Positions 39,709 to 56,978 of a DNA stretch of 64,000 nt are shown piece by piece. The DNA lies in the NCBI RefSeq assembly GCF_036346105.1, contig NZ_CP107811.1:4034501-4098500 (forward strand), written 5' to 3'. The translations under genes were made by a program, and so were the position numbers. Position 1 is the stretch's first letter, and each line of letters starts with the position of its first letter. Source of the DNA: Streptomyces sp. NBC_00539. Its GTDB lineage: Bacteria > Actinomycetota > Actinomycetes > Streptomycetales > Streptomycetaceae. The notes beneath the pieces are model-generated. The model did not search any database, was not told the origin of the DNA, and saw only the letters and a program-made list of their open reading frames with translations.

Positions 39709-39898
39709 TTGTTTTCGATCCTTCCTGCAGAGGCGTATCCACTGCAAAATTAACAACGAGTGGCTTCGGAAAAAGAAACCGGCTATTTCCGGGGGCGTGC
39801 GGTCATTTCACCCCGATGCCGCGCGCGCGTGCTCCGGAATTCGCCGGCGGATTCGGTCGGGGACCTGCGTCGGCCCGTGGAAAGGGCTCATACGCGGC

Positions 39899-40359: not shown

Positions 40360-40410
40360 TGTCGTCCCTTTTTTGCAGGATTGCCCGTTACTTGGAGCAC
40401 CCGGATCAAC
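40360..40410 (-). promoter_or_regulatory. conserved upstream block of rodlin copy 2
   Basis: On the minus strand it is GTTGATC-x-GGG-x-GCTCCA, 5 bases, CGGGCA-x-TC-x-TGC, then AAAAAAGGGA. It matches the block before rodlin copy 1 at nearly every position. It probably carries the shared promoter. Confidence 0.55.
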
Positions 40411-40796: not shown

Positions 40797-41912
40797 ATGG
40801 GTTCCCCCCGAAGAATCCTCGGCGCGCTGGGTCTTCTGTCCTGCCTCATGCTTTCGGCCAACGTCCCCGTGGCCGGTGCGGCCACGCCCGCCGCGACGGA
40901 GACCGCCGCCGTCGGGGAGCTGCCCCGCGTCCCGTTCACCCAGCGCTACCAGGCCGTGCTGCACGGCGGGCTGGTCCGGGCGTCGAACTCCTCGATCTCC
41001 TGCCGCAAGGAGGAGGCGCCGCAGGCAGAGCCGTGCGCGGAGGTCAAGCGCGGCGCGGCGGGGGTCAACGGCGACTACGACATGTTCTACACGGAGGTCG
41101 ACAAGGACCCCGACACCTACAACTCCACCCGCGCCGAGCTCAAGATCCCCCAGGGGGCGAAGGTCGCGTACGCCCGGCTGTACTGGGGCGGGAACCTGCG
41201 CGTGGGCGAGCAGAAACCGCCGGAGGACAGCGGCCGGGTGCTGGTCGCCGAGCCCGGCGGGGCGTACAAGGAAGTCCTGGCGGACACCGTGGTCGGGCAC
41301 CGCACCGACGCGGCGAGCGACGCCTACCAGGCCTCGGCCGACGTGACCCCGCTCGTGCGCAAGGGCGGTACCGGGATGTGGACGGTCGCCCAGCTGAACA
41401 TCGCCATGGGCCGCTCGGAGGCGGGCGCCTGGGGCGGCTGGACGCTCGTCGCCGCGTACGAGCAGCCGCAGGAGCCGCTGCGCCGCGTCTCGCTGTGGGA
41501 CGGCTTCGAGGGCCTGGCGTCCGGGGCCGGCGAGGCGGCCGGGGAGACGGTGGAGCTGACCGGGCTGAACGCCCCGGCGGGCTCCACCGGGCGGCTCGGG
41601 GTGGTCGCGTACGACGGCGACCGGGGGAGCCTCGGGGACTCGCTCACGGTGACCGCCGACAGTGGCCGCCGGGTGAGCATCAGTGATGCGGAAAATCCTT
41701 TCAATGACGTCATGAATTCCACCATCACGGAATTCGGGCAGGCGTTCGTGCGACAGCCTGAATATATGAACAATCTCGGATACGACGCGGACGTGTTCGA
41801 TCTGAGTCCCGCCCTGTCCGGTGGCGCCCGCAGCCTGAGCTTCAAGTTCACGGGCGAAAGCCAGGGGCAATTCCTCGGCGTGCTCTTCGTTCAGACAGAC
41901 GCGCGCCGCTGA
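40797..41912 (+). CDS. secreted DUF3344-type protein, first gene of the polysaccharide operon
   Basis: A 371-residue protein with a signal peptide (residues 1-29, L-S-A-N-V-P-V-A-G-A-A). The body carries D-Y-D-M-F-Y-T-E-V-D-K-D-P-D-T-Y-N-S-T, then V-A-Y-A-R-L-Y-W-G-G-N. W-T-V-A-Q-L-N-I-A and GGWTLVAAYEQPQEPLRRVS follow, the pattern of DUF3344, a secreted beta-rich family of unknown function. AGGAGG lies 8 bases before the ATG. The next gene starts 19 bp after the stop, so it is probably co-transcribed with the glycosyltransferases. It could be a matrix or polymer-binding protein (inference). Confidence 0.8.
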   Translation: MGSPRRILGALGLLSCLMLSANVPVAGAATPAATETAAVGELPRVPFTQRYQAVLHGGLVRASNSSISCRKEEAPQAEPCAEVKRGAAGVNGDYDMFYTEVDKDPDTYNSTRAELKIPQGAKVAYARLYWGGNLRVGEQKPPEDSGRVLVAEPGGAYKEVLADTVVGHRTDAASDAYQASADVTPLVRKGGTGMWTVAQLNIAMGRSEAGAWGGWTLVAAYEQPQEPLRRVSLWDGFEGLASGAGEAAGETVELTGLNAPAGSTGRLGVVAYDGDRGSLGDSLTVTADSGRRVSISDAENPFNDVMNSTITEFGQAFVRQPEYMNNLGYDADVFDLSPALSGGARSLSFKFTGESQGQFLGVLFVQTDARR

Positions 41913-41931
41913 ACGCAGGAGACCACTCCAC

Positions 41932-43206
41932 GTGCCGACACATCGTTCGACAGCACACTCCCCGCACCCGCCCTCCCCGCACCCGGCCACCGAGCCGTTC
42001 ACCGTCCTCCACCTGGTCCAGCCCGTCGACGGCGGGGTCGCCCGGGTCGTCACCGACCTCGTGCGGGCCCAGTCCGCCGCCGGGCTGCGCGTCGTCGTCG
42101 GCTGCCCGGGCGGCGGGCAGCTCGGCGAAGCCGCCCGCGACGCCGGGGCCGAGGTCCACACCTGGCACGCCGGACGGTCGCCCGGGCCGGCCCTGCCCGC
42201 CGAAGTCCTCGGCGCGCTGCGGCTGGTCCGCCGCGTCCGGCCCGACCTCCTGCACGCCCACAGCGCCAAGGCCGGCCTCGCCGGACGGCTCGCCGTCCGG
42301 GGCTCCGTGCCCACCGTCTTCCAGCCCCACGCCTGGTCCTTCGACGCCGTCGGCGGGGCCACCGCCGCGCTCGCGCTGCGCTGGGAGCGGTTCGGGGCCC
42401 GCTGGGCCGACCGGGTGCTCTGCGTCAGCGAATCGGAGCGCCGGGCCGGGGAGTCGGAGGGCGTCACCGCCCGCTGGTCGGTGATCCGCAACGGCGTGGA
42501 CCTGTCCCACTTCCGCCCCGGCCGCGACGACCGGGACGAGGGCCGGGCCGCGGCGCGCGCCGCACTGCCGCTGCCCGACGCCTTCCGCGGCGGCGGACCG
42601 CTGGCCGTCTGCGTCGGACGGCTCTGCCCCCAAAAGGGCCAGGACATCCTGCTCCGCGCCTGGCCCGAGGTGCTGGGGACGGTCCCGGACGCCCGTCTGG
42701 TCCTGGTCGGCGACGGCCCCGACGGCGAGGCACTACGGCACTGCGCGCCGCCCGGCGTGCACTTCGCCGGAGCCGCCGCCGACATCCGACCGTGGCTTCG
42801 GGCCGCCGACATCGTTGTACTGCCGTCGCGGTGGGAAGGAATGGCGCTCGCCCCGCTCGAAGCCATGGCCTGCGGCCGCCCGGTCCTGGTCTCCGACGTC
42901 AGCGGTGCCCGGGAGAGCCTGCCGCCCGGCCAGGGACGGCTGTGCCTGGTGCCTGCGGAGGACCCGACGGCGCTGGCCAAGGCCCTGGGACGGCTGCTCG
43001 CCGAACCGCGGCTGCTCACCGAACTGGGGGAGCAGGCCCGGCAGCACGCCCGGACCGAGTTCGACGTGCGGAGGACCACGGACGCGGTCACCGGCCTGTA
43101 CCTCGAAATGCTGGGCAGGGCCGCCCCCTCGCCCGGCCGGGACCAGACCCCCGGCTCCGCCGCGGGGACCCCCAAGCCCTCGAACATGGAGCGCATCAGC
43201 CGATGA
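41932..43206 (+). CDS. GT4-family glycosyltransferase
   Basis: A 424-residue GT-B enzyme. The N-terminal domain has H-L-V-Q-P-V-D-G-G-V-A-R-V-V and the usual acceptor region L-L-H-A-H-S-A-K-A-G-L. The C-terminal donor domain has V-C-V-G-R-L-C-P-Q-K-G-Q-D, then LPSRWEGMALAPLEAMACGR with the E-x7-E motif of GT4 retaining enzymes. It adds a nucleotide-activated sugar to a growing lipid-linked unit in the cytoplasm. GTG 41932 follows G-C-A-G-G-A-G. Its stop overlaps the ATG of the sugar transferase. Confidence 0.9.
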   Translation: MPTHRSTAHSPHPPSPHPATEPFTVLHLVQPVDGGVARVVTDLVRAQSAAGLRVVVGCPGGGQLGEAARDAGAEVHTWHAGRSPGPALPAEVLGALRLVRRVRPDLLHAHSAKAGLAGRLAVRGSVPTVFQPHAWSFDAVGGATAALALRWERFGARWADRVLCVSESERRAGESEGVTARWSVIRNGVDLSHFRPGRDDRDEGRAAARAALPLPDAFRGGGPLAVCVGRLCPQKGQDILLRAWPEVLGTVPDARLVLVGDGPDGEALRHCAPPGVHFAGAAADIRPWLRAADIVVLPSRWEGMALAPLEAMACGRPVLVSDVSGARESLPPGQGRLCLVPAEDPTALAKALGRLLAEPRLLTELGEQARQHARTEFDVRRTTDAVTGLYLEMLGRAAPSPGRDQTPGSAAGTPKPSNMERISR

Positions 43207-44708
43207 CGATGGACAGCGCACCCGCCCGGCACACCGGGCAGAGCGGCACGGGGCCCGCCGGCGGCACCACCGCCGTCCGACGTGCCGGAACCGCCATCCA
43301 CCCGCCGCGCCGGCCCAAGGCCGAGCAGGCCCGGCCCGCCGTCCGGCCGCAGCGGGCCCGGCGCGGCTACGGGAACCTCCCGCTGCTGACCGCCGACGCG
43401 CTGGCCGCCGCACTCACCACCACGGCCGTACCCGGACTGGAACCCACCGCCGGCCTCGTGGCACCCCTCGCCGTACTGGTCACCGCACTGCACGCGCAGG
43501 CCGGGCTCTACCGGCCCCGGCTCGCGCCCTCCGCGCTGCGCGAGCTGCCGGCGCTGGCCGGACGGGCCGCGGTGCTGTGGTGCGGGGCCGCCGCCGTGCT
43601 GGCCGCCGTCCGGCCGGGGCAGGCGCTCGGCTGGGAGGTGCTGCTCGGCGCCCTGTGCGTGCAGACCGTACTGGCCTGCGCGGGCCGGGGGTTCGTCAAC
43701 CAGCTCCGCCGCCGGGCGGCCCTGCGCAGACCCTGCTCGGCGCTGGTCGTCGGGCGCGGGGAGGGCGCGGGAGCCGTCGCCGCCGCGCTCCACGGGCGGC
43801 GCGAGTACGGGCTGCGGCCGGTCGGGATCGCCGACACCGGCTCCGCGCCCGACGCGGAGAGCGGCCCGCTGCCGGTGCTGTGCACCCACGAGGACGTGCG
43901 GCGCGCCGTCATCCAGAACTCCGTCCGGCACGCCGTGTTCACCCGGCCGCCCGAGGCCGACGAGCGCACCGCCTCGCTGGTCCGGCTCTTCCACGACCAC
44001 GGTTGCCGGCTCTGGCTCGCCGATCCCGCCGGGACCGCCAAGGTGACCGGCATGCGGGTGGCCGAGCCCGCCGACCAGCTGTGGGGGTACGCCGTGCAGC
44101 CGCTGCTCCCGCGGCCCGCCCGGTCGCTGGAGCGGCACGCGAAGCGCATCATCGACTCCACCCTCGCCGCGGTGGCGCTGCTGGCCGCGGCGCCCGTGAT
44201 GGGTGCGTGCGCCCTGGCCGTACGGCTCTCCGACGGGCCGGGGGTGATCTTCCGTCAGGAGCGCGTCGGCCTGTACGGGCGGCCCTTCACCCTGCTCAAG
44301 TTCCGCACCCTGAGCGCCGACGCGCACGAGTCCGCCACCCGGTGGACCGTCGCCGGGGACCGCCGGATGAGCCCGATCGGGTCCTTCCTGCGCAAGTCCT
44401 CGCTGGACGAGCTGCCGCAGCTGTGGAACGTCGTACGGGGCGACATGAGCCTGGTCGGCCCCCGCCCCGAAAGGCCGTTCTTCGTCGCGAAGTTCAGCAC
44501 CGTCCACCCCGGCTACGAGGCCCGCCACCGGATGCCCGTCGGGATCACCGGACTCGCCCAGATCAACGGCCTGCGGGGGGACACCTCCATCGAGGACCGG
44601 GCCCGCTTCGACAACCACTACATCGACACCTGGTCGCTGTGGCAGGACCTGTGGATCCTGGCCCGGACCGCGGCCTCCTTCTTCCGTTTCCGGCTGGGAG
44701 GCAGCTGA
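43203..44708 (+). CDS. polyprenyl-phosphate sugar-1-phosphate transferase (WbaP/WcaJ-like initiating enzyme)
   Basis: A 501-residue membrane protein. About 50 disordered residues are followed by four hydrophobic segments and a CoA-binding-like domain. From about residue 315 comes the bacterial sugar transferase domain: K-R-I-I-D-S-T-L-A-A-V-A-L, F-R-Q-E-R-V-G-L-Y-G-R-P-F, LLKFRTLSADAHES, F-L-R-K-S-S-L-D-E-L-P-Q-L-W-N-V and M-S-L-V-G-P-R-P-E. It loads the first sugar phosphate onto undecaprenyl phosphate and so starts the repeat unit. It overlaps the upstream GT4 gene by 4 bp; the next gene begins 2 bp after. Confidence 0.92.
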   Translation: MTMDSAPARHTGQSGTGPAGGTTAVRRAGTAIHPPRRPKAEQARPAVRPQRARRGYGNLPLLTADALAAALTTTAVPGLEPTAGLVAPLAVLVTALHAQAGLYRPRLAPSALRELPALAGRAAVLWCGAAAVLAAVRPGQALGWEVLLGALCVQTVLACAGRGFVNQLRRRAALRRPCSALVVGRGEGAGAVAAALHGRREYGLRPVGIADTGSAPDAESGPLPVLCTHEDVRRAVIQNSVRHAVFTRPPEADERTASLVRLFHDHGCRLWLADPAGTAKVTGMRVAEPADQLWGYAVQPLLPRPARSLERHAKRIIDSTLAAVALLAAAPVMGACALAVRLSDGPGVIFRQERVGLYGRPFTLLKFRTLSADAHESATRWTVAGDRRMSPIGSFLRKSSLDELPQLWNVVRGDMSLVGPRPERPFFVAKFSTVHPGYEARHRMPVGITGLAQINGLRGDTSIEDRARFDNHYIDTWSLWQDLWILARTAASFFRFRLGGS

Positions 44709-44710
44709 GC

Positions 44711-46090
44711 ATGACCCTCGCCGCATCGCACGCCCGCCCGCGGGGCCGCCCGTACAGCGGGCCGCTGCTGCGCCGGCACTGGCCGCTGCTGCCGCTGGCC
44801 GCGACCGTCCTGCTGCTGCTCGCCCCGCTGCCCGCGGGGGACGCGAGCACCTCCGGCAAGGTCGGGCCGGCCGACGCCGCCTCCCTGCTGCTCGTGGCCG
44901 TCTGCGCGCTGCGGGCCCTGCAGGGCAGGGTGCGGGCGCTGAGCCCGCTCGGCGCGCTCGTCCTCGGGCTGCCCGCGGTGGGGCTCGCGGTGGCGACGGT
45001 GACGGCGGGGGACCCGTACGCGGCCCTGCCGGGGTTCGTGCGCTACCTCCAGGTCTTCGTACTGGTCCCGGCGGCGATCGTGCTGCTGGTGCGGGACGCC
45101 GGGGAGTTCCGGCTGGCCGCGGCCTGCTTCGTGGTCCTGGCGCTGGTACAGGGCGCATGGGGCGTCGTCCAGTTCGTCACCCACACCGGCGCCTCGTACC
45201 AGGGCGCGGACATCCGGGCGGTGGGCACCTTCGGCCCCGGCGACGTCATGGGCATGGCCACGGTCGTCGCCTACGGGCTGGTCGTGGCGACCGCTGCCGC
45301 CCTCGCGCCGGGGCTGCCCGGCCGGGTCCGGCGGATCGCGACCGTCAGCGCCGCGGCGCTGACGGTGCCGCTGGTGCTGTCGTTCAGCCGGGGCGCGTGG
45401 ATCGCGACGGCCGGTGCGGCGGTCCTGGTGATGGTGCTCGCCGGGATCCGGCGGGCGCTCAAGGTGGTGGTGGCGCTGGCAGCCGTGGGCGTGGTGCTGG
45501 TGGGCGGGTTCGGGGTCGGCTCCGAGATGGTCACCGAGCGGCTGACCTCGATCACCCAGGTCTCCGACGCCCCCGACCAGTCGGTCACCGACCGGTACAC
45601 GATGTGGGCCGCCGCCGAGTCGATGTGGCGGGAGCGGCCGGCCGCCGGGGTGGGCCTCAAGGGCTTCCCGGCCAACCGGGACGGCCACTCCTCGCTGGCG
45701 CTGTCCTCGGGCAGCGACACCGCGGGCGCCGGCCAGGCCTTCGTCAAGCAGCCGCTGCTGTCGCCGCACAACATGTACCTGCTGGTGCTGAGCGAGCAGG
45801 GACTGATCGGGCTGACGGCGCTGGCGGGCGGCTGGGCCGCGCTGCTGGTCGCGGGCCTGCGCCGGTACGCGGCCGGTGGTGAACGGGGCCTGCGCGACTG
45901 CGGGCTGATCGCGGTCGGACTGCTCGTGTGGCAGCTGACCGACTTCCTCTACGCCGACATCGGGGGGCCGTCGACCGTGCTGACCGGAGTGATCATCGGA
46001 CTGGCGGCGTGGTGGGCCCTGCCCTCCGGACCCGGGGGTGCCGCCGTGCTCCCGGCCCGGCCCGTCCCCGAGGGGCCGGCCGGCCGGTGA
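44711..46090 (+). CDS. O-antigen ligase/polymerase-like membrane protein (Wzy)
   Basis: A 459-residue protein with about 11-12 hydrophobic segments. The large external loop (about residues 290-355) carries T-D-R-Y-T-M-W-A-A-A-E-S-M-W-R-E-R-P, G-V-G-L-K-G-F-P and the family's H-N-M-Y-L signature (S-P-H-N-M-Y-L-L-V-L-S-E-Q-G-L-I-G). This Wzy_C/WaaL pattern marks enzymes that polymerise or ligate lipid-linked repeat units outside the membrane. In this operon a Wzy polymerase is the natural role. It starts 2 bp after the sugar transferase and overlaps the flippase gene by 4 bp. Confidence 0.9.
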   Translation: MTLAASHARPRGRPYSGPLLRRHWPLLPLAATVLLLLAPLPAGDASTSGKVGPADAASLLLVAVCALRALQGRVRALSPLGALVLGLPAVGLAVATVTAGDPYAALPGFVRYLQVFVLVPAAIVLLVRDAGEFRLAAACFVVLALVQGAWGVVQFVTHTGASYQGADIRAVGTFGPGDVMGMATVVAYGLVVATAAALAPGLPGRVRRIATVSAAALTVPLVLSFSRGAWIATAGAAVLVMVLAGIRRALKVVVALAAVGVVLVGGFGVGSEMVTERLTSITQVSDAPDQSVTDRYTMWAAAESMWRERPAAGVGLKGFPANRDGHSSLALSSGSDTAGAGQAFVKQPLLSPHNMYLLVLSEQGLIGLTALAGGWAALLVAGLRRYAAGGERGLRDCGLIAVGLLVWQLTDFLYADIGGPSTVLTGVIIGLAAWWALPSGPGGAAVLPARPVPEGPAGR

Positions 46091-47970
46091 CCGATACGAC
46101 GCCGTGGCGGCCCGCGGCCTCGGCGACCGACCTCGCCGGGGCCGCGGGCCGTCCGCCCGACCCCCAGCCCCCGTCGGCCCCGTCACCCGCCGAGCCGCCC
46201 GGGGAGCGCGTCCGCCCGGCCCGGGCCGCCCGCCCCGAGCCGACGGCGCCCGCGCCGGACACGACGGGGCCCGGCACGGACGGGAGCGGGCCGGCGGGCC
46301 CCGGCGCGGCGGCGGACGACGGGGCCGGGCAGGACGCGCGGCGCGGCGGGGGCGGACCGGCCCCGCTCGGGCGGTTCCTGGCCAAGGCCGCCGCCGTCAC
46401 CGCCGGACTCACCGCGGCGGGGGCGGTGTTCGGCCTCGTACGGGACCAGACCATCGCGCACCTCTTCGGCGCCGGCCACGACAGTGACGCCTTCCTCATC
46501 GCCTGGACCGTCCCCGAGATGGCCTCCACGCTGCTCATCGAGGACGCCATGGCACTGCTGATGGTGCCCGCGTTCAGCCACGCGCTGGCCCGCCGGGCCG
46601 CCAGCCGGGCCGGGCGCACCCGCAAGGAGGCCCGTAGCCAGGACCCCGTACGGCTGCTCGTCGGAGCCACCCTGCCCCGCCTCGCCGTGTTCCTGGCTGC
46701 CGTCGCCTCCGTACTGGTCCTCGCCGCGCCGCTCGTCGTGGGCGTGCTCGCGCCCGGCCTGCCCGACCCCGAACTCGCCGTCCAGTGCACCCGGATGACC
46801 GCGCTCACCGTCCTCACCTTCGGCGTCGCCGGGTATTTCAGCGCCGCGCTGCGCGCGCACCGCTCGTTCCTGCCACCCGCCGCGATCTACGTCTCGTACA
46901 ACGTCGGCATCATCGGCACGATGGTCGCGCTGCACGCCCTGTGGGGGGTGCGCGCGGCGGCCGCCGGGGTCGCCGTCGGCGGGGCGCTCATGGTCCTCGT
47001 CCAGCTCCCCGCGTTCCTTCGCAACGTGGGCTTCGGACCGGGCCGCGTGAAGGCGGCCCACCGCAGCGAGCGCGACCGCGACCGGCCGACGCTGATCGCC
47101 TTCGGGCTGATCGCCCCGGTCATCTTCTTCGCCGTGTTCCGCCAGTCGCAGGTGCTCGTCGAACGCTTCCTCGCCGCCTCCCTGCCGCCCGGCGCCATCT
47201 CGCACCTCAACTACGCGCAGAAGGTCGCGCAGATGCCGATGGTGCTCTCCTTGATGATCTGCACCGTCACCTTCCCCGTCGTCGCCCAGGCCATGGCCGG
47301 CGGCGAGCGCGAGAAGGCCCGCCGGCGCGTGGAACAGGACCTGGCACTCGCCTCGCTCGCCGTGCTGATGGGCACCGCCTTCGTCATCGGCTACGCGCCC
47401 CAGATCATCCAGGTCCTCTTCGAACGCGGGGCGTTCACCCACCACGACACCCAGGCCACCGCCTCCGTCATGCGCGTCTACGGCCTCGGGCTGCTGGGGC
47501 ACTGCCTCGTCGGGGCGCTGAGCAGGCCCTTCTTCTCGACCGACCGGCCCACCTGGTTCCCCGCGCTCGCCATGGGCGCCGGGCTCCTCGTCAACGTCGT
47601 GGCCGGTGCCTTCGCCGTCGGCTGGTGGGGCACGTACGGGATCGCCGCCGCCAACGCCGCCGGCATCACCGCCACCGCCGCCCTCCTCCTCACCGGACTC
47701 GGCTCTCGGATCGTCCCCATCCAGGTCCGCCGGGTAGCCGTCAGCATCGGCCGGCTCGCCGTCGCCGCCTTCGCCGCCTGCACCACGGGGTGGATCGCCG
47801 GACCGATGATCCCCGACCCGCTGCTCAGCGCCGCGCTCGGCTGCCTGCTCGTCCCGGCCATGTTCGGGGCCACCGGGATGGCCATGCGGGCACTGGAGAT
47901 CACCGCCCTGCCCGAACAGATCAGCCAGCTCACCTCCCAGCTCACCCAGAGGTTCCGTCATGCCCGCTGA
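46087..47970 (+). CDS. MurJ/Wzx-type lipid-linked oligosaccharide flippase
   Basis: A 627-residue protein. The first 100 residues are a Pro/Ala-rich cytoplasmic tail. About 14 hydrophobic segments follow, with the MviN/MurJ pattern: GLVRDQTIAHLFGAGHDSDA, F-L-I-A-W-T-V-P, S-H-L-N-Y-A-Q-K-V-A-Q-M-P, LFERGAFTHHDTQATASVMR. MurJ flips lipid II; in an exopolysaccharide operon this copy is most likely the Wzx-equivalent that exports the undecaprenyl-linked repeat unit. It overlaps the polymerase gene (GTGA) and the deacetylase gene by 11 bp, so translation is coupled. Confidence 0.9.
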   Translation: MTDTTPWRPAASATDLAGAAGRPPDPQPPSAPSPAEPPGERVRPARAARPEPTAPAPDTTGPGTDGSGPAGPGAAADDGAGQDARRGGGGPAPLGRFLAKAAAVTAGLTAAGAVFGLVRDQTIAHLFGAGHDSDAFLIAWTVPEMASTLLIEDAMALLMVPAFSHALARRAASRAGRTRKEARSQDPVRLLVGATLPRLAVFLAAVASVLVLAAPLVVGVLAPGLPDPELAVQCTRMTALTVLTFGVAGYFSAALRAHRSFLPPAAIYVSYNVGIIGTMVALHALWGVRAAAAGVAVGGALMVLVQLPAFLRNVGFGPGRVKAAHRSERDRDRPTLIAFGLIAPVIFFAVFRQSQVLVERFLAASLPPGAISHLNYAQKVAQMPMVLSLMICTVTFPVVAQAMAGGEREKARRRVEQDLALASLAVLMGTAFVIGYAPQIIQVLFERGAFTHHDTQATASVMRVYGLGLLGHCLVGALSRPFFSTDRPTWFPALAMGAGLLVNVVAGAFAVGWWGTYGIAAANAAGITATAALLLTGLGSRIVPIQVRRVAVSIGRLAVAAFAACTTGWIAGPMIPDPLLSAALGCLLVPAMFGATGMAMRALEITALPEQISQLTSQLTQRFRHAR

Positions 47971-48736
47971 CACCGACACGGCGCCCGCCGCCACGGTGGT
48001 ACCACCCCGTCGCACCCCGTCCCCGTGGATCCTGATGTACCACTCGGTCGCCGAGTTCACCGACCCCGCCGAGGACCCGTACGGCATCACCGTCACGCCG
48101 GGCGCCCTGGAGGCCCAGCTGCTGTGGCTGCGCTCCCGGGGCCTGCGCGGGGTGTCCGTCGGCGAACTGCTGCGGGCCCGCGACGCCGGGCGGGACGCCG
48201 GGCTCGTCGGGCTCACCTTCGACGACGGCTACACCGACTTCCTGACCCGGGCGCTGCCCCTGCTGCGCCGCTACGACTGCACCTCCACCCTGTTCGTACT
48301 GCCCGGGCGGCTCGGCGTCGACAACGTGTGGGACCCGCTCGGACCGCGCAAGCCGCTGCTCACCGCCGAAGGCATCCGCGAAGTCGCCGCCTCGGGACAG
48401 GAGATCGGCTCTCACGGGCTGCTGCACCAGGACCTCACCGCCACGCCCGACGACGTGCTCCAGCAGGAGCTGCGGGGCAGCCGCGAGCTGATCCGCGAGC
48501 TGACCGGGACCCTGCCCGAGGGGTTCTGCTACCCGTACGGGCACCTCGACCCCCGGGTCGTGGAGGCGACCGCGGCCGCCGGGTACCGGTACGCGTGCGC
48601 CATCGACCCCGGCCGGCTCGCGGGGCGGCACGCCATGCCGCGCACGCACGTCAGCCAGGCCGACGGCGGGGCCCGGCTGCGCGTCAAGCAGCTGCGCCAC
48701 CAGGGCCGGCAGCTGGTGCGCGGGGTGCGCTGGTGA
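47960..48736 (+). CDS. polysaccharide deacetylase (NodB-type, CE4)
   Basis: A 258-residue CE4-fold protein. It begins near residue 22 with W-I-L-M-Y-H-S-V-A. The metal/catalytic motif L-T-F-D-D-G-Y-T-D-F is at about residues 87-96, S-H-G-L-L-H-Q-D-L at about 152-160, and F-C-Y-P-Y-G-H-L-D later. These give the Asp-His-His site that removes N- or O-acetyl groups from polysaccharide. There is no signal peptide, so action may be on the inner face or on lipid-linked precursors. It overlaps both neighbours. Confidence 0.9.
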   Translation: MPADTDTAPAATVVPPRRTPSPWILMYHSVAEFTDPAEDPYGITVTPGALEAQLLWLRSRGLRGVSVGELLRARDAGRDAGLVGLTFDDGYTDFLTRALPLLRRYDCTSTLFVLPGRLGVDNVWDPLGPRKPLLTAEGIREVAASGQEIGSHGLLHQDLTATPDDVLQQELRGSRELIRELTGTLPEGFCYPYGHLDPRVVEATAAAGYRYACAIDPGRLAGRHAMPRTHVSQADGGARLRVKQLRHQGRQLVRGVRW

Positions 48737-50016: not shown

Positions 50017-50083
50017 TCCTCCCGCAAGGGTCCCCGTCCGGGGGCCGAAGGAAGTCCCCTCCACTCAGGAAGCGAGCACGCAC

Positions 50084-50818
50084 ATGGCCGACACCGCCGA
50101 TCAGAAGAAGAAGTCCGACCACCGCCGCCGGATCCGCGTCCCGCGCCCGCCCGCATGGTGGCCGTTGCCCGCCTGCGCGCTGCTGGGGCTGGCCGCGGGC
50201 GGGGCGTACGGGGTGCTCAAGGCGCCCGAGTACGCCGCCACCAGCTACGTCGTCGCCGTCCCCAACGAGACCACCGAGCCCGCCACCGCGCTCGGCTTCG
50301 CCCAGGCCTACGCCCGCATCGCCACCAGCAGCTCCACCCTCGCCTACGCCCAGCCCCGCGCGGGCATCGGCGCCCGGCAGCTGCGGACGCAGGTGCGTGC
50401 GGAGACCTCGCCCGACTCACCGATGATCGCCATCACCGGCACCTCCAAGAGCCCGTCGGAGGCCGCCGACATCGCCAACGCCGTTGCCGACGCACTTTCC
50501 CTGAGCAGCAATCAGGCCGCCAAGAACACCGGCGTCCAGTTGATCCTGTTCAACCAGGCCGTCGCACCGGCCGACCCCGCCTCCCCGTCCGCACCCGTCA
50601 GCGGCGCCGTCGGCATGTGCGCCGGCGGCCTGATCGGCGGGCTGTGGCTGCTCGCCGCTCCCGCCCGGCGCCGCCGCGGGACGCCCGCCGCCGAGGGGGC
50701 CGTGGAAGGGGCGGTCGTGGACGGGGCCGCCGCGGAGGAGACCGTGGTGGAGGAGTACGCCTCGCTGCCCGCGCAGGGCGAGCCCGCCCCGGCCAAGGAG
50801 AAGGAGCCCGTGCGATGA
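50084..50818 (+). CDS. Wzz/YveK-like chain-length or export cofactor
   Basis: A 244-residue protein. A basic cytoplasmic start (K-K-K-S-D-H-R-R-R) leads to TM1 (about residues 25-43) and an external domain with Y-A-A-T-S-Y-V-V and ITGTSKSPSEAADIANAVAD. TM2 follows near residues 178-198, with a Glu/Ala-rich tail. This is the layout of polysaccharide co-polymerases of the Wzz family. The tyrosine-kinase domain seen in some relatives is absent and no kinase lies nearby. It follows a 67-bp gap; the ribosome-binding site is weak. It overlaps the acyltransferase gene by 4 bp. Confidence 0.8.
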   Translation: MADTADQKKKSDHRRRIRVPRPPAWWPLPACALLGLAAGGAYGVLKAPEYAATSYVVAVPNETTEPATALGFAQAYARIATSSSTLAYAQPRAGIGARQLRTQVRAETSPDSPMIAITGTSKSPSEAADIANAVADALSLSSNQAAKNTGVQLILFNQAVAPADPASPSAPVSGAVGMCAGGLIGGLWLLAAPARRRRGTPAAEGAVEGAVVDGAAAEETVVEEYASLPAQGEPAPAKEKEPVR

Positions 50819-51957
50819 CTGCGGGCCGCACCGGGGCCCTGTCGGTGACGCTGTGCCGCGACCCCCGGCAGTTCGCCGCGCTGGAGGAGGAATGGAACCG
50901 GCTCCTGCGCGCCTGCCCCACCGCCACCCCCTTCCAGAGCCACGCCTGGCTGCACTCCTGGTGGCTGTCGTACGGCCGTGAGGGCAGGCTGCGGCTGCTC
51001 GTCGTACGGCGCGGGGAGGAACTGGTCGGCGCGGCCGCCCTGACGCTCGTGCACCGGCCGTTGCCGCTGCTGGTGCCGCTCGGCGGCGGGATCACCGACT
51101 ACTTCGACGTGCTCGTGGCCCCCGGCCACGCCGACCAGGTCGTCCCGGCGCTGGCCCAGGGCCTGCACCGGGCCGCCCGCGGCGCCGTCGTGGACCTGCG
51201 CGAGGTCAGGCCCGGCGCCGCGGCCGAAGCCGTCTTCGAGGCCTGGCCCGGTGCCCGCGCCAAGCTGGCCGACTCCACCTGCATGGAGCTGCCGACCATG
51301 CCCTTCGACGAGCTGGTCAAGCGCATGCCCGCGTCCGGGGCGCAGCGGGTCCGGGCCAAGCTGCGCAAGACCGACGCCGCCGGGATCGAGGAGCACGAGG
51401 TCACCGAACGGGAAGTACCGGGGGCGGTGCGGACGCTGCTGCGGCTGCACGAGAAGCAGTGGCGCGGGCGCGGGGTCACCCCCGAGCACCTCAAGCCGCG
51501 CTTCGCCGAGCACCTCACGCGGGCGACCCGGCGGATGGTCCGGGCGGGCGAGGGCCGGCTGACGGAGTTCCGGCTGGACGGGAAGGTGGTGGCCGCCAAC
51601 GTCACGCTGCTGTCGGCGGCGCTGAGCGGCGGCTACCTGTACGGGGCCGATCCGGACCTGCGCAACCGGAAGGTGGACATCGCCACCCTGCTGCTGCGCT
51701 ACGAGACCGGCCGCGCCCTCGCCGAGGGCCGCCCGGTGGTGAGTTTCCTGCGCGGCAACGAGCCGTACAAGAACCACTGGCGGCCCGAGACGGTCGTCAA
51801 CCAGCGGCTCCTGCTGTCCACGAACGCGCTCGCGCCCCTGCTGCGGCTGCACGAGTCGCAGCTGACGGGGCGCGAGCGGGCGGTGGACGCGTTGCGCGAG
51901 GCGCTGCCGGCCGCCAGGGACTGGCGGGCGCGGCTGAACGAACTGCGGGTGCGATGA
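50815..51957 (+). CDS. CelD/FemAB-type acyltransferase (GNAT-like)
   Basis: A 380-residue protein with two GNAT-like halves. The first has W-N-R-L-L-R-A-C-P-T-A-T-P-F-Q-S-H-A-W-L, the pattern of the BcsL/CelD (Acetyltransf_6) family. The second has LTEFRLDGKVVAANVTLLSA, G-Y-L-Y-G-A-D-P-D-L-R and FLRGNEPYKNHW. CelD-type proteins occur in polysaccharide operons and probably acylate or aminoacylate sugars, though the reaction is not settled. It is the last gene of the nine-gene operon, overlapping the Wzz-like gene. Confidence 0.85.
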   Translation: MTAGRTGALSVTLCRDPRQFAALEEEWNRLLRACPTATPFQSHAWLHSWWLSYGREGRLRLLVVRRGEELVGAAALTLVHRPLPLLVPLGGGITDYFDVLVAPGHADQVVPALAQGLHRAARGAVVDLREVRPGAAAEAVFEAWPGARAKLADSTCMELPTMPFDELVKRMPASGAQRVRAKLRKTDAAGIEEHEVTEREVPGAVRTLLRLHEKQWRGRGVTPEHLKPRFAEHLTRATRRMVRAGEGRLTEFRLDGKVVAANVTLLSAALSGGYLYGADPDLRNRKVDIATLLLRYETGRALAEGRPVVSFLRGNEPYKNHWRPETVVNQRLLLSTNALAPLLRLHESQLTGRERAVDALREALPAARDWRARLNELRVR

Positions 51958-52019
51958 CGGGAGGGACGCGCCCGCGACCGTGCCGGTGCCCCGGCCGGAG
52001 CCGGAGCCGGGGCCGGCGG

Positions 52020-53654
52020 CTAGAACGGCCAGAGCGAGCCCTTGCTCCAGTCGATCTTGATGCAGACGGCCTGGTTGCCGACGAGCTTGGACAGCCACTC
52101 GCCGAAGTTGATCGGCACGCACCACTGGGTGCTGTTCGTGCCGGGCGGCTTCGGCTTGGGCGGCACCACGGGGAGGTGGGGCGCGACGGGCACCAGCGGA
52201 CTCGGCACGACGGAGGGGGCGGGCGTGGGTGTCGGCGTGGGTGTCGGCGTGGGCTCGGGTGTGGGCGACGGCACGGGGACCGGGACGGGCACCGGGTCGG
52301 GGACGACGGGGTCGACCGGCGGGACCGAGGGGCTCGCCGGGGCCGGATCCGGTGTGCTCGGCAGCGGGACCGGGCTCTCGGACACCGGCGCCTCGGGAGT
52401 GGGGGAGGCGGGTGTGGGCGTGGGAGTGGGTGTGGGCGTGGGAGTCGGAGTGGGCTTCGGCGACGGGACCTGTGGGCTCGGCGCCACCGGTTCGGACGCG
52501 ACGGGTGCCGGCAGGCTGGGGCTGGGCACGACCGGCGGCGTCGGGACCGCGGGCGGCGTCGGGACGACCGGTGGCGTCGGGACGACCGGTGGGGTCGGGA
52601 CCACCGGCGGCGTCGGGACCACGGGCGGCGTCGGGACGACGGGCGTCGGGGTGACCGGGTCCGGCTTGCGCGGGGTCAGCGCGGTACGGAACGCCTGGGC
52701 CGACCGCGGGTTCGCCTTGCACTGCCACACGCCGTGCGGGCAGTAGTCCGTGATGGTGTGGTAGAGCGGCTTGTGCTGCTCGATCCACTTGAGCATGCGC
52801 CGTACGTACTCGGGATTGTCCCCGCGCCGGAACAGCCCCCACTCCGGGTACGAGATCGGCTTGCCGTGTGCTTTCGCGAAGTCGACGTGCTGCTGGAGCC
52901 CGTACGACTGGCTGATCTGCTCGTCGAACGTCCGGCCGGGGCCCTGGTCGTACGAATCCATCCCGATGACGTCGACCACGTCGTCACCCGGGTAGCACCG
53001 GGTCCAGCCGATCGCGTCCGAACCCCGGTTCGGGGCGAAATCGAACTTGAACTTCTGTCCGGGCACGGAGCGCATCGTGTTGACCACGCGCCTCCAGTAC
53101 GCCTTCCACCTGTCCGGGTCGGGACCGCAGCGGTGGGTGTACGTGGCCCCGTTCATCTCCCACCCGAGCACGATGACGGTGTCCGGCACGCCCAGGTCCA
53201 CCAGCCTCTCGGCGAGCTTGCGGAAGTGGCCGTCGTACTCGCCCCGCGCACCGGCGGCGATCAGCCGGGCCACCTGCCAGTCCGACACCCGGTCCTCGTT
53301 GCGGGCCTGCATGGGCACGTTGAGCACGAACATCCGGTCGTCGCGGGCCTGGCGCCACTCGGCCCAGTCCTCCAGGAAGTCCACGGAGCCCTCGATCCCG
53401 GCCCACCGGTCGCCGGGCAGATAGGTGTGCCCGACCCGGATCTCCTTGCCGCCCAGCCAGCGCGACAGGTACGGGATCCGCGCGACACCGGGCGGCCCGA
53501 AGTCGAGGTAGGCGCCCATGGCGATGTCGGCGCCGGAACCGGAGCCGGACGGCGGCTGCGGTTCCGGCGCCGCCAGAGCCGCGCCGGATGCGAGGAGTCC
53601 GGCCGTGACCGTACCGATGCAGGTGCTCGCCAGTCGGCGGTGTGGTCTGCGCAT
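52020..53654 (-). CDS. secreted GH26-like glycoside hydrolase with Pro/Thr stalk
   Basis: A 544-residue protein. The signal peptide is residues 1-29. A (beta/alpha)8 catalytic domain spans about 40-330, with V-L-G-W-E-M-N-G-A-T-Y (acid/base Glu about 165) and I-S-Y-P-E-W-G-L (nucleophile Glu about 271). These are the GH26 endo-mannanase family signatures. A roughly 170-residue stalk follows (V-V-P-T-P-P repeats, P-T-P-T runs), then a 40-residue C-terminal module with two Cys (Q-W-C-V-P-I-N-F-G-E-W). It probably cleaves or trims the polymer made by the neighbouring operon, as hydrolases in exopolysaccharide loci do (inference). Confidence 0.85.
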   Translation of the reverse strand: MRRPHRRLASTCIGTVTAGLLASGAALAAPEPQPPSGSGSGADIAMGAYLDFGPPGVARIPYLSRWLGGKEIRVGHTYLPGDRWAGIEGSVDFLEDWAEWRQARDDRMFVLNVPMQARNEDRVSDWQVARLIAAGARGEYDGHFRKLAERLVDLGVPDTVIVLGWEMNGATYTHRCGPDPDRWKAYWRRVVNTMRSVPGQKFKFDFAPNRGSDAIGWTRCYPGDDVVDVIGMDSYDQGPGRTFDEQISQSYGLQQHVDFAKAHGKPISYPEWGLFRRGDNPEYVRRMLKWIEQHKPLYHTITDYCPHGVWQCKANPRSAQAFRTALTPRKPDPVTPTPVVPTPPVVPTPPVVPTPPVVPTPPVVPTPPAVPTPPVVPSPSLPAPVASEPVAPSPQVPSPKPTPTPTPTPTPTPTPASPTPEAPVSESPVPLPSTPDPAPASPSVPPVDPVVPDPVPVPVPVPSPTPEPTPTPTPTPTPAPSVVPSPLVPVAPHLPVVPPKPKPPGTNSTQWCVPINFGEWLSKLVGNQAVCIKIDWSKGSLWPF

Positions 53655-53803
53655 GGCATCTCCCGAGCTTCCTGAACCGGTGCGGTCACCAACGACGTTA
53701 GACATCACATCCGACGAATGGCCTGTCCGATGACCCATCAGTAGGCCATTCGCAGGTGCGTACCATTCCCGCTTGGTCCGACTAGGTGAAAGACACCGCT
53801 GCC

Positions 53804-55201
53804 ATGCACGCGTTCGCCAACCATGTGCCCGCCGTACTGCTCAGACTCGATCGCAATCCGTTCCACCACGGAACCCTCGGCGCCGTCAGATCCCTTGGCC
53901 GCAGGGGCGTGGAGGTCCATGCCGTCGTCGAGGCCGGGGGAGGTCCCATGGGACGTTCGCGGTACCTGCGCGCCGCGCATCCGGGGCCCGAGGGAGGGCT
54001 GGATCCGCAGGCACCGGAGGCGTTGCTGGAGTGCCTCGTCGGGGTGTCCGAGCGGATCGGGCGGCCGGCGGTGCTGGTCGCGATGGACGACCTGAGCGCC
54101 ATCGCCGTGTCGCGGATGGCGCCGATGCTGACCGGGCGTTACCGGATCCCCCATCAGCCCGACGGCCTGCCCGCCCGGGTGGCCGACAAGGCGGAGCTGT
54201 CCCGGCTGTGCGCGCGCTGGGACATCCCGCACCCGGAGACGGTGATCCCGGCGAGCGCGACCGAGGCCGCGGAGGCCGCGTGGCGGCTGGGCCTGCCGGT
54301 GGTGGCGAAGTGGAGCCGGCCGTGGCTGCTGCCCTCGGGCGCCGGGCTGCGGAGCACCACGCTGCTGCACTGCGCCGCCGAGGCGCGTCGGCTGTACGAG
54401 CGCTCGGCGGAGGCGGGGAGCCGGCTGCTGCTCCAGCGGTTCCTGCCGGCCGGTACGGACACGGACTGGTTCTTCCACGGCGCCTTCGGCCGGGACGGCC
54501 ACCCGCTGCTGGTCGGCTCGGGCCGCAAGGAGCTGTCCTGGCCGGTGCGGACGGGGCTGACGGCGGTGGGGCGGTGGCTGCCGGACCCGGCGGTGGAGGA
54601 GGCGGGGCTGCGGCTCGCCGAACGGCTCGGCTACCAGGGCATCTTGGACCTCGACTTCCGCCGCGACGAGCGGGGCTGCTTCCGGCTGGTGGACTTCAAC
54701 CCGCGTCCCGGAGCGCAGTTCCGGCTGTTCACCGACGCGAGCGGGCTGGACGTGGTGCAGGCGATGTACATGGATCTGACGGGGCAACGGGTACCGCAGC
54801 CGTCGGGCGGTCCCGGCCGGGTGTTCCTCGCGGAGAACTACGCGCTGCTGGCGGCCGTACGGGGCCGTCGCCTGCCGTTCGGCCCGCGCGCCGGCCGGGG
54901 CACGGCGACGGCCGGCCCGGTCGCGCCGCGGTCCGGCCGGGTGGAGGCGGCCTGGTTCGCCGCCGACGACCTGGCGCCGTTCCTGGCGATGCTGGCCGCG
55001 TTCCTCGGGCGGGGCGCGGAGAAGGGCGCACGGGTGCTGCGCGGGGTTCCCGCGCGGGGCCGGCGCACCGCCCGGATGGTGGTCCGCGCGCCCCGCCAGC
55101 GGGGTCGGCAGCAGCCTCCGGCCGCCTCGGGCGGCTCGTCGCCCCGCAGCGCCGCGCCGCCGGAGGCGCCGGCGGAACCGGACGAGCTGGTGACGCGGTG
55201 A
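53804..55201 (+). CDS. ATP-grasp ligase (carboxylate-amine ligase type)
   Basis: A 465-residue ATP-grasp protein. It has L-D-R-N-P-F-H-H-G-T-L-G-A-V-R-S-L-G-R near the N-terminus and L-P-V-V-A-K-W-S-R-P-W with the ATP-binding Lys at about residue 172. LRLAERLGYQGILDLDFRRD and L-V-D-F-N-P-R-P-G-A-Q-F-R with the metal Asp/Asn follow. Such enzymes join a carboxylate to an amine at ATP cost, often in polysaccharide loci; the substrate is not known. The last 60 residues are disordered. GTG 53786 is an alternative start. Confidence 0.85.
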   Translation: MHAFANHVPAVLLRLDRNPFHHGTLGAVRSLGRRGVEVHAVVEAGGGPMGRSRYLRAAHPGPEGGLDPQAPEALLECLVGVSERIGRPAVLVAMDDLSAIAVSRMAPMLTGRYRIPHQPDGLPARVADKAELSRLCARWDIPHPETVIPASATEAAEAAWRLGLPVVAKWSRPWLLPSGAGLRSTTLLHCAAEARRLYERSAEAGSRLLLQRFLPAGTDTDWFFHGAFGRDGHPLLVGSGRKELSWPVRTGLTAVGRWLPDPAVEEAGLRLAERLGYQGILDLDFRRDERGCFRLVDFNPRPGAQFRLFTDASGLDVVQAMYMDLTGQRVPQPSGGPGRVFLAENYALLAAVRGRRLPFGPRAGRGTATAGPVAPRSGRVEAAWFAADDLAPFLAMLAAFLGRGAEKGARVLRGVPARGRRTARMVVRAPRQRGRQQPPAASGGSSPRSAAPPEAPAEPDELVTR

Positions 55202-55332
55202 TCCGGTGACCCGGTGAGTCCGCCGGACCCTCCCGCGCCGCCCGCCGGGCCGCGCGGAGGGTTCCGGCGGCCGGGGCGAGGGCCGCTCGCACCAGGGCGC
55301 GGCCGGGCATCCATGGGACGGGAAGGACAGCG

Positions 55333-56619
55333 ATGACGCGGATGGACGATCTCGTGGTGGTCGGCGCGGGACCGTACGGGCTGTCGATCGCCGCGCACGC
55401 GGCGGCCGCCGGGCTCGGAGTACGGGTCCTGGGACGGCCCATGGCGTCGTGGCGGGACCACATGCCCGCGGGCATGTACCTCAAGTCGGAGCCCTGGTCC
55501 TCGAACCTGTCCGCGCCCGCGGGGCGGCACACCCTCGCGGACTACTGCGCCACCCGGGGGCTGGCCGCCGAGCACGGCAGCCCGCTGCCGATCCGCACGT
55601 TCAGCGCGTACGGGCTCTGGTTCGCCCGGCACGCCGGCGGTCCCGAGGTGGAGGAGGTCACCGTCACCGAGGTGGCCCCGCGCGGCGACGGCTTCGTGGT
55701 CAGGACCGCGGAGGGGCCGCCGCTGCTCACCCGTACGGTCGCGCTCGCCGTCGGGGTCATGCCGTTCGTGAACCTCCCCGCGGCACTGCGCGACCTGCCG
55801 CCCGGTCACTGCTCGCACAGCAGCGGCCACCGCGACCTCACCCGTTTCGCCGGCCGCGAGGTCGCCGTCCTCGGCGCCGGGCAGGCGGCCCTGGAGACCG
55901 CCGCGCTGCTGGCCGAGGCGGGGGCCCGGCCGTGCCTGGTGGCCCGGCGCCGGCGGCTGGACTGGAACACCGTCCCCCAGCCGCTGGAGCGGCCCCTGAC
56001 CCGCGCCCTGCGCGACCCGCACAGCGGTCTGGGCACCGGCTGGCGCAGCTGGGTGTGGTCGGAGCTGCCCTGGGCGGTACGGCGGCTGCCCGCGGCCACC
56101 CGGGAGCGGATCGCCGCCACCGCGCTGGGGCCGGCCGGGGCGTGGTGGCTGAGGGACCGCTTCGAGCAGCGGGTCCCCGTACTGCTCGGGCACCACCTGC
56201 ACCGGGCGGTCGCCGTCGGCGAGCGGACCCGGCTGGGGCTGACGACGGCGGCCGGGGAGTCCGTCGTCCTGGACGTCGCGCACGTCATCGCGGCCACCGG
56301 TTTCGCCCCGGAGCTGCGCCGGCTGGAGCTGCTGGACGCAGGGCTGCGGGCCGCGCTGGCGACCGTGGGCGACGGCGGCACGCCCGAGCTGGGCCCGCGT
56401 TTCGAGTCCTCGTGGCCCGGCCTGTTCTTCGCGGGGCTGCTGACCGCTCCCTCGTTCGGCCCTTCCATGCGATTCGTGCACGGCGCCGGCTTCACGGCGG
56501 GGAGACTGGTCAAGGGAGTCCTGGAGCGCCTCGGCGGCCGGGGCGCGCTGCCGGGCTCCCCCGGCGGGACCGGGGTCGACCGGGCGCCCGCGGGGTATCC
56601 CAAGACGTATCTGCGGTGA
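55333..56619 (+). CDS. FAD-dependent oxidoreductase (flavin monooxygenase-like)
   Basis: A 428-residue two-dinucleotide-fold protein. The FAD motif is VVVGAGPYGLSIAAH (residues 8-22), the second GxGxxA fold is V-A-V-L-G-A-G-Q-A-A-L-E-T-A at about 176-189, and A-A-T-G-F-A-P-E-L is at about 318. Y-L-K-S-E-P-W-S-S-N-L resembles the lysine/ornithine N-monooxygenase and related FMO group. GGGAAGG lies before the ATG. It follows the ATP-grasp gene in the same direction, and the two may modify one small molecule or sugar substituent (inference). Confidence 0.85.
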   Translation: MTRMDDLVVVGAGPYGLSIAAHAAAAGLGVRVLGRPMASWRDHMPAGMYLKSEPWSSNLSAPAGRHTLADYCATRGLAAEHGSPLPIRTFSAYGLWFARHAGGPEVEEVTVTEVAPRGDGFVVRTAEGPPLLTRTVALAVGVMPFVNLPAALRDLPPGHCSHSSGHRDLTRFAGREVAVLGAGQAALETAALLAEAGARPCLVARRRRLDWNTVPQPLERPLTRALRDPHSGLGTGWRSWVWSELPWAVRRLPAATRERIAATALGPAGAWWLRDRFEQRVPVLLGHHLHRAVAVGERTRLGLTTAAGESVVLDVAHVIAATGFAPELRRLELLDAGLRAALATVGDGGTPELGPRFESSWPGLFFAGLLTAPSFGPSMRFVHGAGFTAGRLVKGVLERLGGRGALPGSPGGTGVDRAPAGYPKTYLR

Positions 56620-56973: not shown

Positions 56974-56978
56974 GTGGT

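Follow-up and report, generated by a model that had tools for sequence, protein, structure and literature searches.

Related polysaccharide systems

The closest described systems are Wzx/Wzy polysaccharide clusters of the actinobacterium Actinoplanes missouriensis. The imp cluster has been proposed to direct the Wzx/Wzy-dependent synthesis of the matrix polysaccharide of a developmental structure (PMC12691653). Similar to the locus described here, it is actinobacterial and adjoins a secreted glycoside hydrolase gene (GimA/GimB), whereas it differs in having three GT4s together with a GT2, in the use of GH5 hydrolases, and in that no initiating PGT is described (PMC12691653). The wps-1 cluster, also of the Wzx/Wzy type, likewise encodes a GH26 enzyme (WpsE), but its transferases are of the GT2 and GT26 families, it carries two sulfotransferases, and neither a deacetylase nor a BioF2-like enzyme is described (PMC13390465). 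Nearest in gene families is wps-3, which combines GT4, Wzx, Wzy, Wzz, a polysaccharide deacetylase, a BioF2-like acyltransferase and an FAD monooxygenase, but for which no GH26 or PGT is described (PMC13390465). Deletion of wps-3 is reported there to leave sporangium formation normal, which counts against the explanation favored below, and the authors state that they knew of no characterized GH26-bearing Wzx/Wzy system outside Actinoplanes (PMC13390465). The locus described here would be such a system.

Surface glycans tied to aggregation and attachment in Streptomyces include the CslA/GlxA glycan, which is encoded at a different locus and, like the MatAB glycan, is synthase-dependent. The MatAB poly-N-acetylglucosamine is likewise tied to aggregation and attachment and made by a different locus (PMC5972031). 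In Caulobacter, the holdfast is shaped by the deacetylase HfsH and the FemX-like N-acyltransferase HfsK, which act on an exopolysaccharide precursor, resembling the enzyme pair found here (PMC5362036, PMC8449245). Models of the XrtA system, which belong to PEP-CTERM/exosortase A loci, are the best NCBIfam matches of both GT4 enzymes and of Wzy in the window (the whole stretch analyzed, 64,000 nucleotides from Streptomyces sp. NBC_00539), all scoring far below cut-off, and no exosortase was found among the window proteins that were profile-scanned. A FemAB protein is typical of PEP-CTERM/exosortase A exopolysaccharide loci.

Gene content and conservation of the operon

Gene calls combined with Pfam and NCBIfam profiles identify nine genes on the + strand (40797..51957) that form a predicted exopolysaccharide operon. 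This gene content supports the original prediction of a nine-gene Wzx/Wzy exopolysaccharide locus, and its wording "near-complete" is fair for nine genes that include no kinase or sugar-nucleotide gene. The further statement that every step is encoded holds insofar as family matches cover the steps, with the Wzz-like protein matched only weakly and the DUF3344 match falling below cut-off.

The first gene (40797..41912) encodes a secreted protein with a single hydrophobic segment, located at the N-terminus; its score of 25.3 bits to PF11824 falls short of the gathering cut-off of 27.2, and it is therefore termed DUF3344-like only. An alignment of this protein with 34 of its 42 listed homologues contains 61 invariant columns across the 35 sequences, and no PDB sequence match was obtained at E 1. 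The genes gtA (41932..43206) and gtB (48733..50016) encode GT4 glycosyltransferases that both match Glyco_transf_4 and Glycos_transf_1. The product of pgt (43203..44708), a polyprenyl glycosylphosphotransferase, scores 343.6 bits to TIGR03025 (cut-off 295.6) and 205.7 bits to Bac_transf and contains an SLDELPQ motif, consistent with an initiating transferase; two more PF02397 transferases are encoded elsewhere in the genome. The product of the polymerase gene wzy (44711..46090, Wzy_C) matches PF04932 at 72 bits (cut-off 31.7), and at E 1e-5 no other protein of this genome does; the family includes ligases too. The flippase (46087..47970) matches PF03023 at 205.5 bits (cut-off 27.4), consistent with a Wzx-type function, and carries a long Pro/Ala/Gly-rich N-terminal extension; its TIGR01695 score of 219.9 bits is below the MurJ equivalog cut-off of 235.6, and it is consequently not named MurJ itself.

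The CE4 polysaccharide deacetylase (47960..48736) matches Polysacc_deac_1 at 91.8 bits and contains the motifs TFDDG and SHGLLH, and no hydrophobic segment was seen at its N-terminus. The Wzz-like polysaccharide co-polymerase (50084..50818) is a weak call, with 27.3 bits to TIGR01006 (cut-off 296) and no Pfam match. The last operon gene (50815..51957) encodes a FemAB/BioF2-type acyltransferase (Acetyltransf_6, PF13480, 79.5 bits) that has no PDB sequence match at E 0.01 and that we take to belong to one family with HfsK. The three downstream genes that had also been predicted are present: a GH26-family hydrolase on the opposite strand (52020..53654, −), an ATP-grasp-like protein (53786..55201, +) whose match to ATP-grasp_5 (PF13549) is below cut-off (20.3 bits, cut-off 27.6), and an FAD/NAD(P)-binding oxidoreductase (55333..56619, +; PF13738, 56.5 bits).

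Conservation was surveyed across 151 Streptomyces genomes, from which 110 loci were retrieved, 91 of them with full flanks. The operon Wzy is present in 111 of the 151 genomes. Within the 91 full neighborhoods, gtA, pgt and gtB are each found in all 91, the flippase, deacetylase and Wzz-like genes each in 90, and the acyltransferase in 85, while the DUF3344-like gene occurs in only 42. The ATP-grasp-like gene accompanies 52 of the 91 loci and the FAD enzyme 33, a count to be read knowing that some stretches may end before its position.

The GH26 hydrolase

The hydrolase matches PF02156 (Glyco_hydro_26) at 27.1 bits, above the cut-off of 20.2, and aligns partially to GH26 mannanases. The residues E166 (GWEMNG) and E271 (YPEWG), conserved in 100% and 99% of 134 sequences, are presumably the catalytic glutamates, as judged from the motifs of this family. 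Inspection of the N-terminus by eye suggests that the protein is probably secreted, and its architecture includes a Pro-rich linker and a Cys-bracketed C-terminal tail. GH26 is present in 82 of the 91 full neighborhoods, and 36 of the 40 operon-lacking genomes have no match at E 1e-20; the four matches in the remainder comprise three that are 64–85% identical and one at 33%. Co-inheritance with the operon is strong (Fisher p 1e-20 when the match of 33% identity is scored as absent), and GH26 is a tighter partner of the operon than are the chaplins and rodlins.

The tail, which occurs once in this genome, has a Cys spacing similar to that of chaplins, but its identification as a chaplin-like domain was rejected, since profile comparisons returned probabilities of 0.0 and 0.2%. 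A comparison of the tail with chaplin linkage (tail pattern in 44/56 linked and 7/16 unlinked GH26 proteins) was discarded because the pattern missed several clear tails and the relatives are non-independent.

Linkage to chaplins and rodlins

Chaplins and rodlins make up the textbook coat of Streptomyces; what keeps them on the surface of the hyphae is, to our knowledge, not settled. In the window the operon is preceded by two rodlin genes and three genes with a chaplin domain. The rodlins rdl1 (35892..36302, −; 136 aa) and rdl2 (39949..40359, −; divergent from the operon) score 214.9 and 226.2 bits to NF041022, both above the cut-off of 75. Each of the three remaining genes contains a PF03777 chaplin domain: two short chaplins at 37301..37543 (+; 99 bits) and 39475..39708 (−; 101 bits, scored on ORF 39475–39756), and a long chaplin at 38136..39353 (−; 60 bits, scored on ORF 38136–39425) with a single chaplin domain, a repeat-rich middle, an LAATG sorting signal and a C-terminal hydrophobic segment.

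This proximity extends well beyond the strain in which it was predicted. A chaplin lies within the stretch in 71 of the 91 full Streptomyces neighborhoods and is the immediate neighbor in 59, where chance would place one nearby in about 2% of loci; the linkage is far beyond chance and conserved across Streptomyces. The immediate chaplins are divergent from the first operon gene in 45 cases and directly follow the acyltransferase on the same strand in 14. At least three arrangements occur: chaplins and rodlins all upstream, as in the window, chaplins on both sides, and one chaplin right after the last operon gene. Nearby chaplins are absent from 20 of the 91 loci, and 18 of these 20 remain without one when the flanks reach out to some 30 kb, or less in three genomes where the contig ends sooner. 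Nearby chaplins are likewise lacking in the seven operon-bearing genomes that belong to a different family. In a set of named loci that is biased to close relatives and overlaps the 91-locus set by at least 11 loci, 48 of 61 are chaplin-linked. The linkage reaches Actinacidiphila, and the named loci without nearby chaplins include Kitasatospora and Planomonospora. Published locus tags suggest that the equivalent interval in S. coelicolor lies between chpF (SCO2705) and chpA (SCO2716). No polysaccharide locus adjoining chaplins was found described in the openly licensed literature that was searched.

Rodlins behave differently from GH26: they are present in 78 of 111 operon-bearing and 31 of 40 operon-lacking genomes, so that among the 151 Streptomyces genomes no co-inheritance of rodlins with the operon was detected.

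Proposed function and alternatives

The gene families and their conservation point to a locus that makes a matrix polysaccharide of the hyphae by the Wzx/Wzy route, includes a dedicated hydrolase and is conserved beside coat genes, and we regard this as the probable explanation. The phosphoglycosyltransferase would begin a short repeat on undecaprenyl phosphate, which the two GT4 enzymes would extend. The CE4 enzyme, predicted to be cytoplasmic, would take N-acetyl groups off the repeat and the FemAB-type enzyme would acylate it, before flipping by the MurJ-family protein and polymerization by Wzy and the Wzz-like protein. Outside, the dedicated GH26 may trim or release the polymer, which would be deposited on the hyphae at the site of chaplin secretion. 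The genes present, their conservation as a unit, the co-inheritance of GH26 and the conserved linkage to chaplins are directly observed; polymer chemistry, step order, location and any chaplin contact are inferred from sequence.

Whether the linkage reflects joint function is a separate matter, as the operon and the chaplins may merely be old neighbors in the conserved chromosome core, in which case their proximity is uninformative. This reading has about an even chance. A VKOR gene is also found near the operon in 36 of the 91 loci, six of them without chaplins, a quick tree with 95 rows requires only nine changes between the linked and unlinked states, no rodlin-type promoter motif precedes the operon, and rodlins and operon are inherited independently. 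On the other hand, chaplin linkage persists through the different arrangements, and chaplins are immediate neighbors (59/91) more often than VKOR is found anywhere in the stretch (36/91). A functional coupling of the operon to the chaplin coat is judged plausible, albeit at somewhat less than even chances. The polymer may, as originally suggested, cooperate with chaplins in attachment or on aerial hyphae.

The product could instead be an adhesin resembling the holdfast: a cationic polysaccharide, N-acylated and in part de-N-acetylated, that serves hyphal attachment independently of the aerial coat. Chaplins have been reported to function in attachment (PMC4255298), and the operon's deacetylase and acyltransferase are of the same broad families as HfsH and HfsK; the likeness is nevertheless broad only, as the equivalog scores of the holdfast system are not reached (HfsE model 146.9 bits, cut-off 750; HfsH 23.5, cut-off 400), and we consider such an adhesin rather unlikely. 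More improbable still is a wall glycopolymer or protein glycan made with no free exopolysaccharide. The name O-antigen ligase borne by PF04932 and the best NCBIfam match of Wzy, an O-glycosylation ligase model (41.8 bits, cut-off 188), fit this reading, but the Wzz-like gene and the co-inherited GH26 better suit a long free polymer, and the possible carrier, the DUF3344-like protein, is encoded at fewer than half of the loci.

Returning to the matrix-polysaccharide explanation, the presence of polysaccharide genes beside coat genes across much of the genus means that a polymer as yet unstudied may be part of the coat. A more speculative and rather doubtful extension is that the aerial coat is a protein–polysaccharide composite, in which chaplins would assemble on or bind a de-N-acetylated polymer that GH26 tunes or releases, with SCO2706–SCO2715 as the S. 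coelicolor operon between chpF and chpA. This interval lies inside the classical chaplin/rodlin region and is so far unexamined in the openly licensed literature searched. With a conserved polymer locus and its own hydrolase amid coat genes, single-gene deletions could probe a polysaccharide scaffold in the coat.

Operon upstream regions

The operon and rdl2 have a common intergenic region (40360..40796). A rodlin-type motif, AACC-N16..18-GTTGA, which we take to be of the sigma-BldN type, was sought in upstream regions. The exact motif is found in 34 of 44 rodlin and 23 of 196 chaplin upstream regions and in none of 127 operon upstream regions; with one mismatch allowed, it is found in 11 of the 127 versus 7.9 in shuffles. 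In the window, an exact AACC-N17-GTTGA precedes both rdl1 and rdl2, whereas no such motif occurs on the operon's strand within 300 bases upstream of the operon, nor ahead of the three chaplin genes. Consequently, the idea that the operon shares a rodlin-type promoter is unsupported.

Allowing one mismatch, AACC-CGTTG occurs in 7 of 127 operon regions (15.2 shuffled), GGTT-CGTTG in 11 (10.8 shuffled) and CAAC-N16/17-CGTTG in 28 (11.6 shuffled; exact 0/127). The CAAC-N16/17-CGTTG matches are concentrated in regions with a divergent chaplin (23/56, versus 5/71 without), and the excess may therefore reflect the chaplin's own control region read on the opposite strand, or operon and chaplin may share an element. 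Other blocks that recur in operon upstream regions are CTAGAGTTG and the palindrome GGATTAATCC, which were matched to no regulator.

Gene Content of the Locus

The interest of the polysaccharide locus lies in its position beside coat genes. The operon occupies positions 40797–51957 (+ strand) of the window, in a host genome of 7.5 Mb; judged by its nearest named relatives, the strain is a Streptomyces close to S. cirratus (97% for the initiating transferase). Its nine genes overlap or almost abut, with the sole exception of a 67-base gap 5′ of the Wzz-like gene. Two rodlins and three chaplin-domain genes lie 5′ of the operon, and it is followed by a GH26 gene on the opposite strand and then by genes for an ATP-grasp-like protein and an FAD enzyme. 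Family searches bore out the gene list of the original prediction, which described a Wzx/Wzy locus beside a rodlin-chaplin cluster, although the score for DUF3344 falls slightly below cut-off and the Wzz-like call is weak.

The long sortase-type chaplin (38136–39353) carries only one chaplin domain, together with an extended repeat-rich middle region and the sorting signal LAATG; the long chaplins described so far typically contain two chaplin domains each. Two small secreted-looking proteins (36635–37117 and 37630–37974) without an NCBIfam match are also encoded within the chaplin-rodlin cluster; beyond the window's clade they are almost absent, occurring at 0 and 2 of 82 loci. A PAS-GAF-SpoIIE-HATPase protein (56931–59087) is encoded 3′ of the FAD gene, and is unmatched in the stretches of 91 other operon loci, which may stop short of its position.

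Linkage to Chaplin Genes

The operon Wzy is present in 111 of 151 Streptomyces genomes (including that of the window), while 40 are without it at an E-value of 1e-20. In a class-wide sample of 295 genomes, Wzy was found in 37 at 1e-40, comprising 30 of the window's genus and seven from one other family (four genera). Named loci with Wzy outside Streptomyces include those of Kitasatospora sp. DSM 101779, Actinacidiphila acididurans, and Planomonospora venezuelensis.

Wzy neighbourhoods were fetched for 110 of the 111 genomes (the window's own being left out), and 91 of these form a full-flank set (≥9 kb of upstream and ≥10 kb of downstream sequence), the other 19 being excluded because of contig ends. 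A chaplin domain lies in the stretch at 71 of the 91 loci (on the upstream side alone at 40, on the downstream side alone at 16, and on both sides at 15) and is absent from 20. At 45 loci a divergent chaplin lies no more than 1.1 kb from the first operon gene found, and at 14 a same-strand chaplin lies no more than 0.6 kb from the last, so that 59 of 91 have one in either immediate position. By chance, a chaplin would be expected in ~2% of random 20 kb stretches (chaplin domains occur at eight places in the window's genome), although the binomial significance is overstated because the 91 loci are related. A named set is skewed toward close relatives and overlaps the unnamed set by 11 loci or more; in it, 76 of 79 loci have Wzy, and a chaplin is present in 48 of the 61 with 9 kb on both sides. 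The predicted linkage is thus conserved well beyond one strain, and the observation of a polysaccharide locus beside coat genes holds more generally than one sequence could reveal.

A quick tree was built from 95 rows (the 91 loci, the window, and three outside loci), for which the program gave a long-branch warning; on it, the linked/unlinked state requires 9 changes and the arrangement 18. Extending the flanks of the 20 unlinked loci to ~30 kb (shorter in three genomes owing to contig ends) revealed chaplins in only two, ~20 kb off; all five unlinked Streptomyces checked have chaplins elsewhere in the genome. In the seven other-family genomes, chaplin-like domains and the operon occupy separate contigs or, in G261 and G323, lie over 1 Mb apart on one contig.

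Arrangements and the Predicted S. coelicolor Interval

Three arrangements recur. In that of the window, every chaplin and rodlin is upstream of the operon. In the second, chaplins flank the operon, and rodlins can sit ~9–14 kb downstream (e.g., genomes G013, G042, G076, G086, and G144). In the third, one chaplin lies 6–175 nt 3′ of the acyltransferase gene, as read out at 12 loci that include one genome twice (L044, L100), the gap varying with the start chosen. A promoter-like GTTACC...GCGTTGTC stretch occurs in 8 of the 12 printed gaps, and therefore this chaplin probably has its own promoter. Of the 16 loci with a chaplin on the downstream side alone, 10 have a GH26 piece ~10.4 kb on, at the stretch end and on the operon's strand, one has it at 7.2 kb, and five show none.

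Where Wzy is >75% identical, an extra chaplin lies directly beside the DUF3344 gene in divergent orientation at 28 loci and is missing at 15 (some genomes counted twice). The window has no such immediate chaplin (40360–40796), so this strain may have lost its copy.

Two papers place chpG, chpF, chpA, and chpD of S. coelicolor at SCO2699, SCO2705, SCO2716, and SCO2717 (PMC5650626) and rdlA and rdlB at SCO2718 and SCO2719 (PMC5826349). This order matches the both-sides type, as in S. pyxinicus, where chaplins lie at −8.2, −3.5, +8.7, and +9.0 kb from Wzy, followed by a rodlin at +9.6 kb. Consequently, locus-tag order predicts an equivalent operon at SCO2706–SCO2715 of S. coelicolor. In the open-licence literature, no paper was found on SCO2706–SCO2711, and for SCO2712–SCO2715 SCO2713 alone turned up, as an RNA control.

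Upstream Motifs and a Possible Joint Function

Upstream regions were taken from loci L009–L197 with mechanically picked starts; once near-copies had been removed, the set comprised 44 rodlin regions (from 105), 196 chaplin regions (from 298), and 127 operon regions (from 177). The exact rodlin dyad AACC-N16..18-GTTGA occurs in 34 of 44 rodlin, 23 of 196 chaplin, and 0 of 127 operon regions (shuffled means <0.4). Allowing one mismatch, these counts become 41, 70, and 11, with a shuffled value of 7.9 for the operon. In the window, the exact dyad precedes both rodlins, but neither the operon nor any of the three chaplin genes has it, even with one mismatch, so it is no marker of chaplins there either. 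Rodlins also show no co-occurrence with the operon, being present in 78 of 111 operon-bearing versus 31 of 40 operon-lacking genomes (Fisher p 0.42; lists matched by hand). The original prediction, that the polymer works with chaplins, is half right: the linkage is conserved, but a joint function is only a possibility, favoured by none of three tests (rodlin-type promoter, rodlin co-occurrence, unlinked operons).

A looser pair, CAAC-N16/17-CGTTG (one mismatch), is in excess before the operon, with 28 of 127 regions versus 11.6 shuffled. As a spaced CAACG...GTTG pair, it is nearly limited to regions with a divergent chaplin (23 of 56 versus 5 of 71; e.g., L116, L140, L166, and L181), and may be the chaplin's own element or a control element common to chaplin and operon. 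The operon upstream regions of L116, L119, and L140 contain a palindromic GGATTAATCC, followed by CTAGAGTTG or TTAGAGTTG, which is perhaps a regulator site.

Proposed Mechanism

Steps are assigned from the established roles of the protein families. The initiating transferase and two GT4 enzymes would assemble a repeat of about three sugars, as judged from transferase number. The CE4 enzyme carries the motifs TFDDG and SHGLLH and lacks a hydrophobic segment at its N-terminus; together with the FemAB-type acyltransferase it would modify the repeat in the cytoplasm, in line with the proposal for the holdfast enzymes HfsH and HfsK (PMC5362036). The MurJ-family flippase, Wzy, and the Wzz-like protein would then export and polymerise the repeat, with GH26 predicted to work outside the cell.

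Among worked-out developmental systems, the closest analogues are clusters for the sporangium matrix of Actinoplanes missouriensis (PMC12691653, PMC13390465). Sporangia are deformed when imp or wps-1 is deleted, and spores are released by the hydrolases GimA/GimB, but deletion of wps-3, the nearest cluster by gene families, leaves sporangia unaffected (PMC13390465). The analogy suggests that in Streptomyces the polymer may fill the coat layer or anchor it.

Partners Inherited with the Operon

GH26 is present at 82 of the 91 full-flank loci and is unmatched at 1e-20 in 36 of the 40 Wzy-lacking genomes (the four matches being three at 64–85% identity and one at 33%), a comparison of local with whole-genome searches in which assembly gaps may explain some Wzy absences. 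DUF3344, ATP-grasp, and the FAD enzyme are found at 42, 52, and 33 loci, respectively. GH26 aligns to GH26 mannanases across part of its length, and its two putative catalytic glutamates are conserved in 100% and 99% of 134 sequences (some genomes twice). Its C-terminus (52020–52130, − strand) is a Cys-bracketed tail of the C..L.LG.W....GG..C type behind a Pro-rich linker, seen in 99 of the 134 and once in the window's genome; profile comparison shows no relationship of this tail to chaplins. Cysteine pairs are present in both the chaplins and this tail, and a disulfide-forming VKOR gene (35081–35752), one of two in the genome, adjoins the cluster; VKOR lies inside the fetched stretch at 36 of 91 operon loci.
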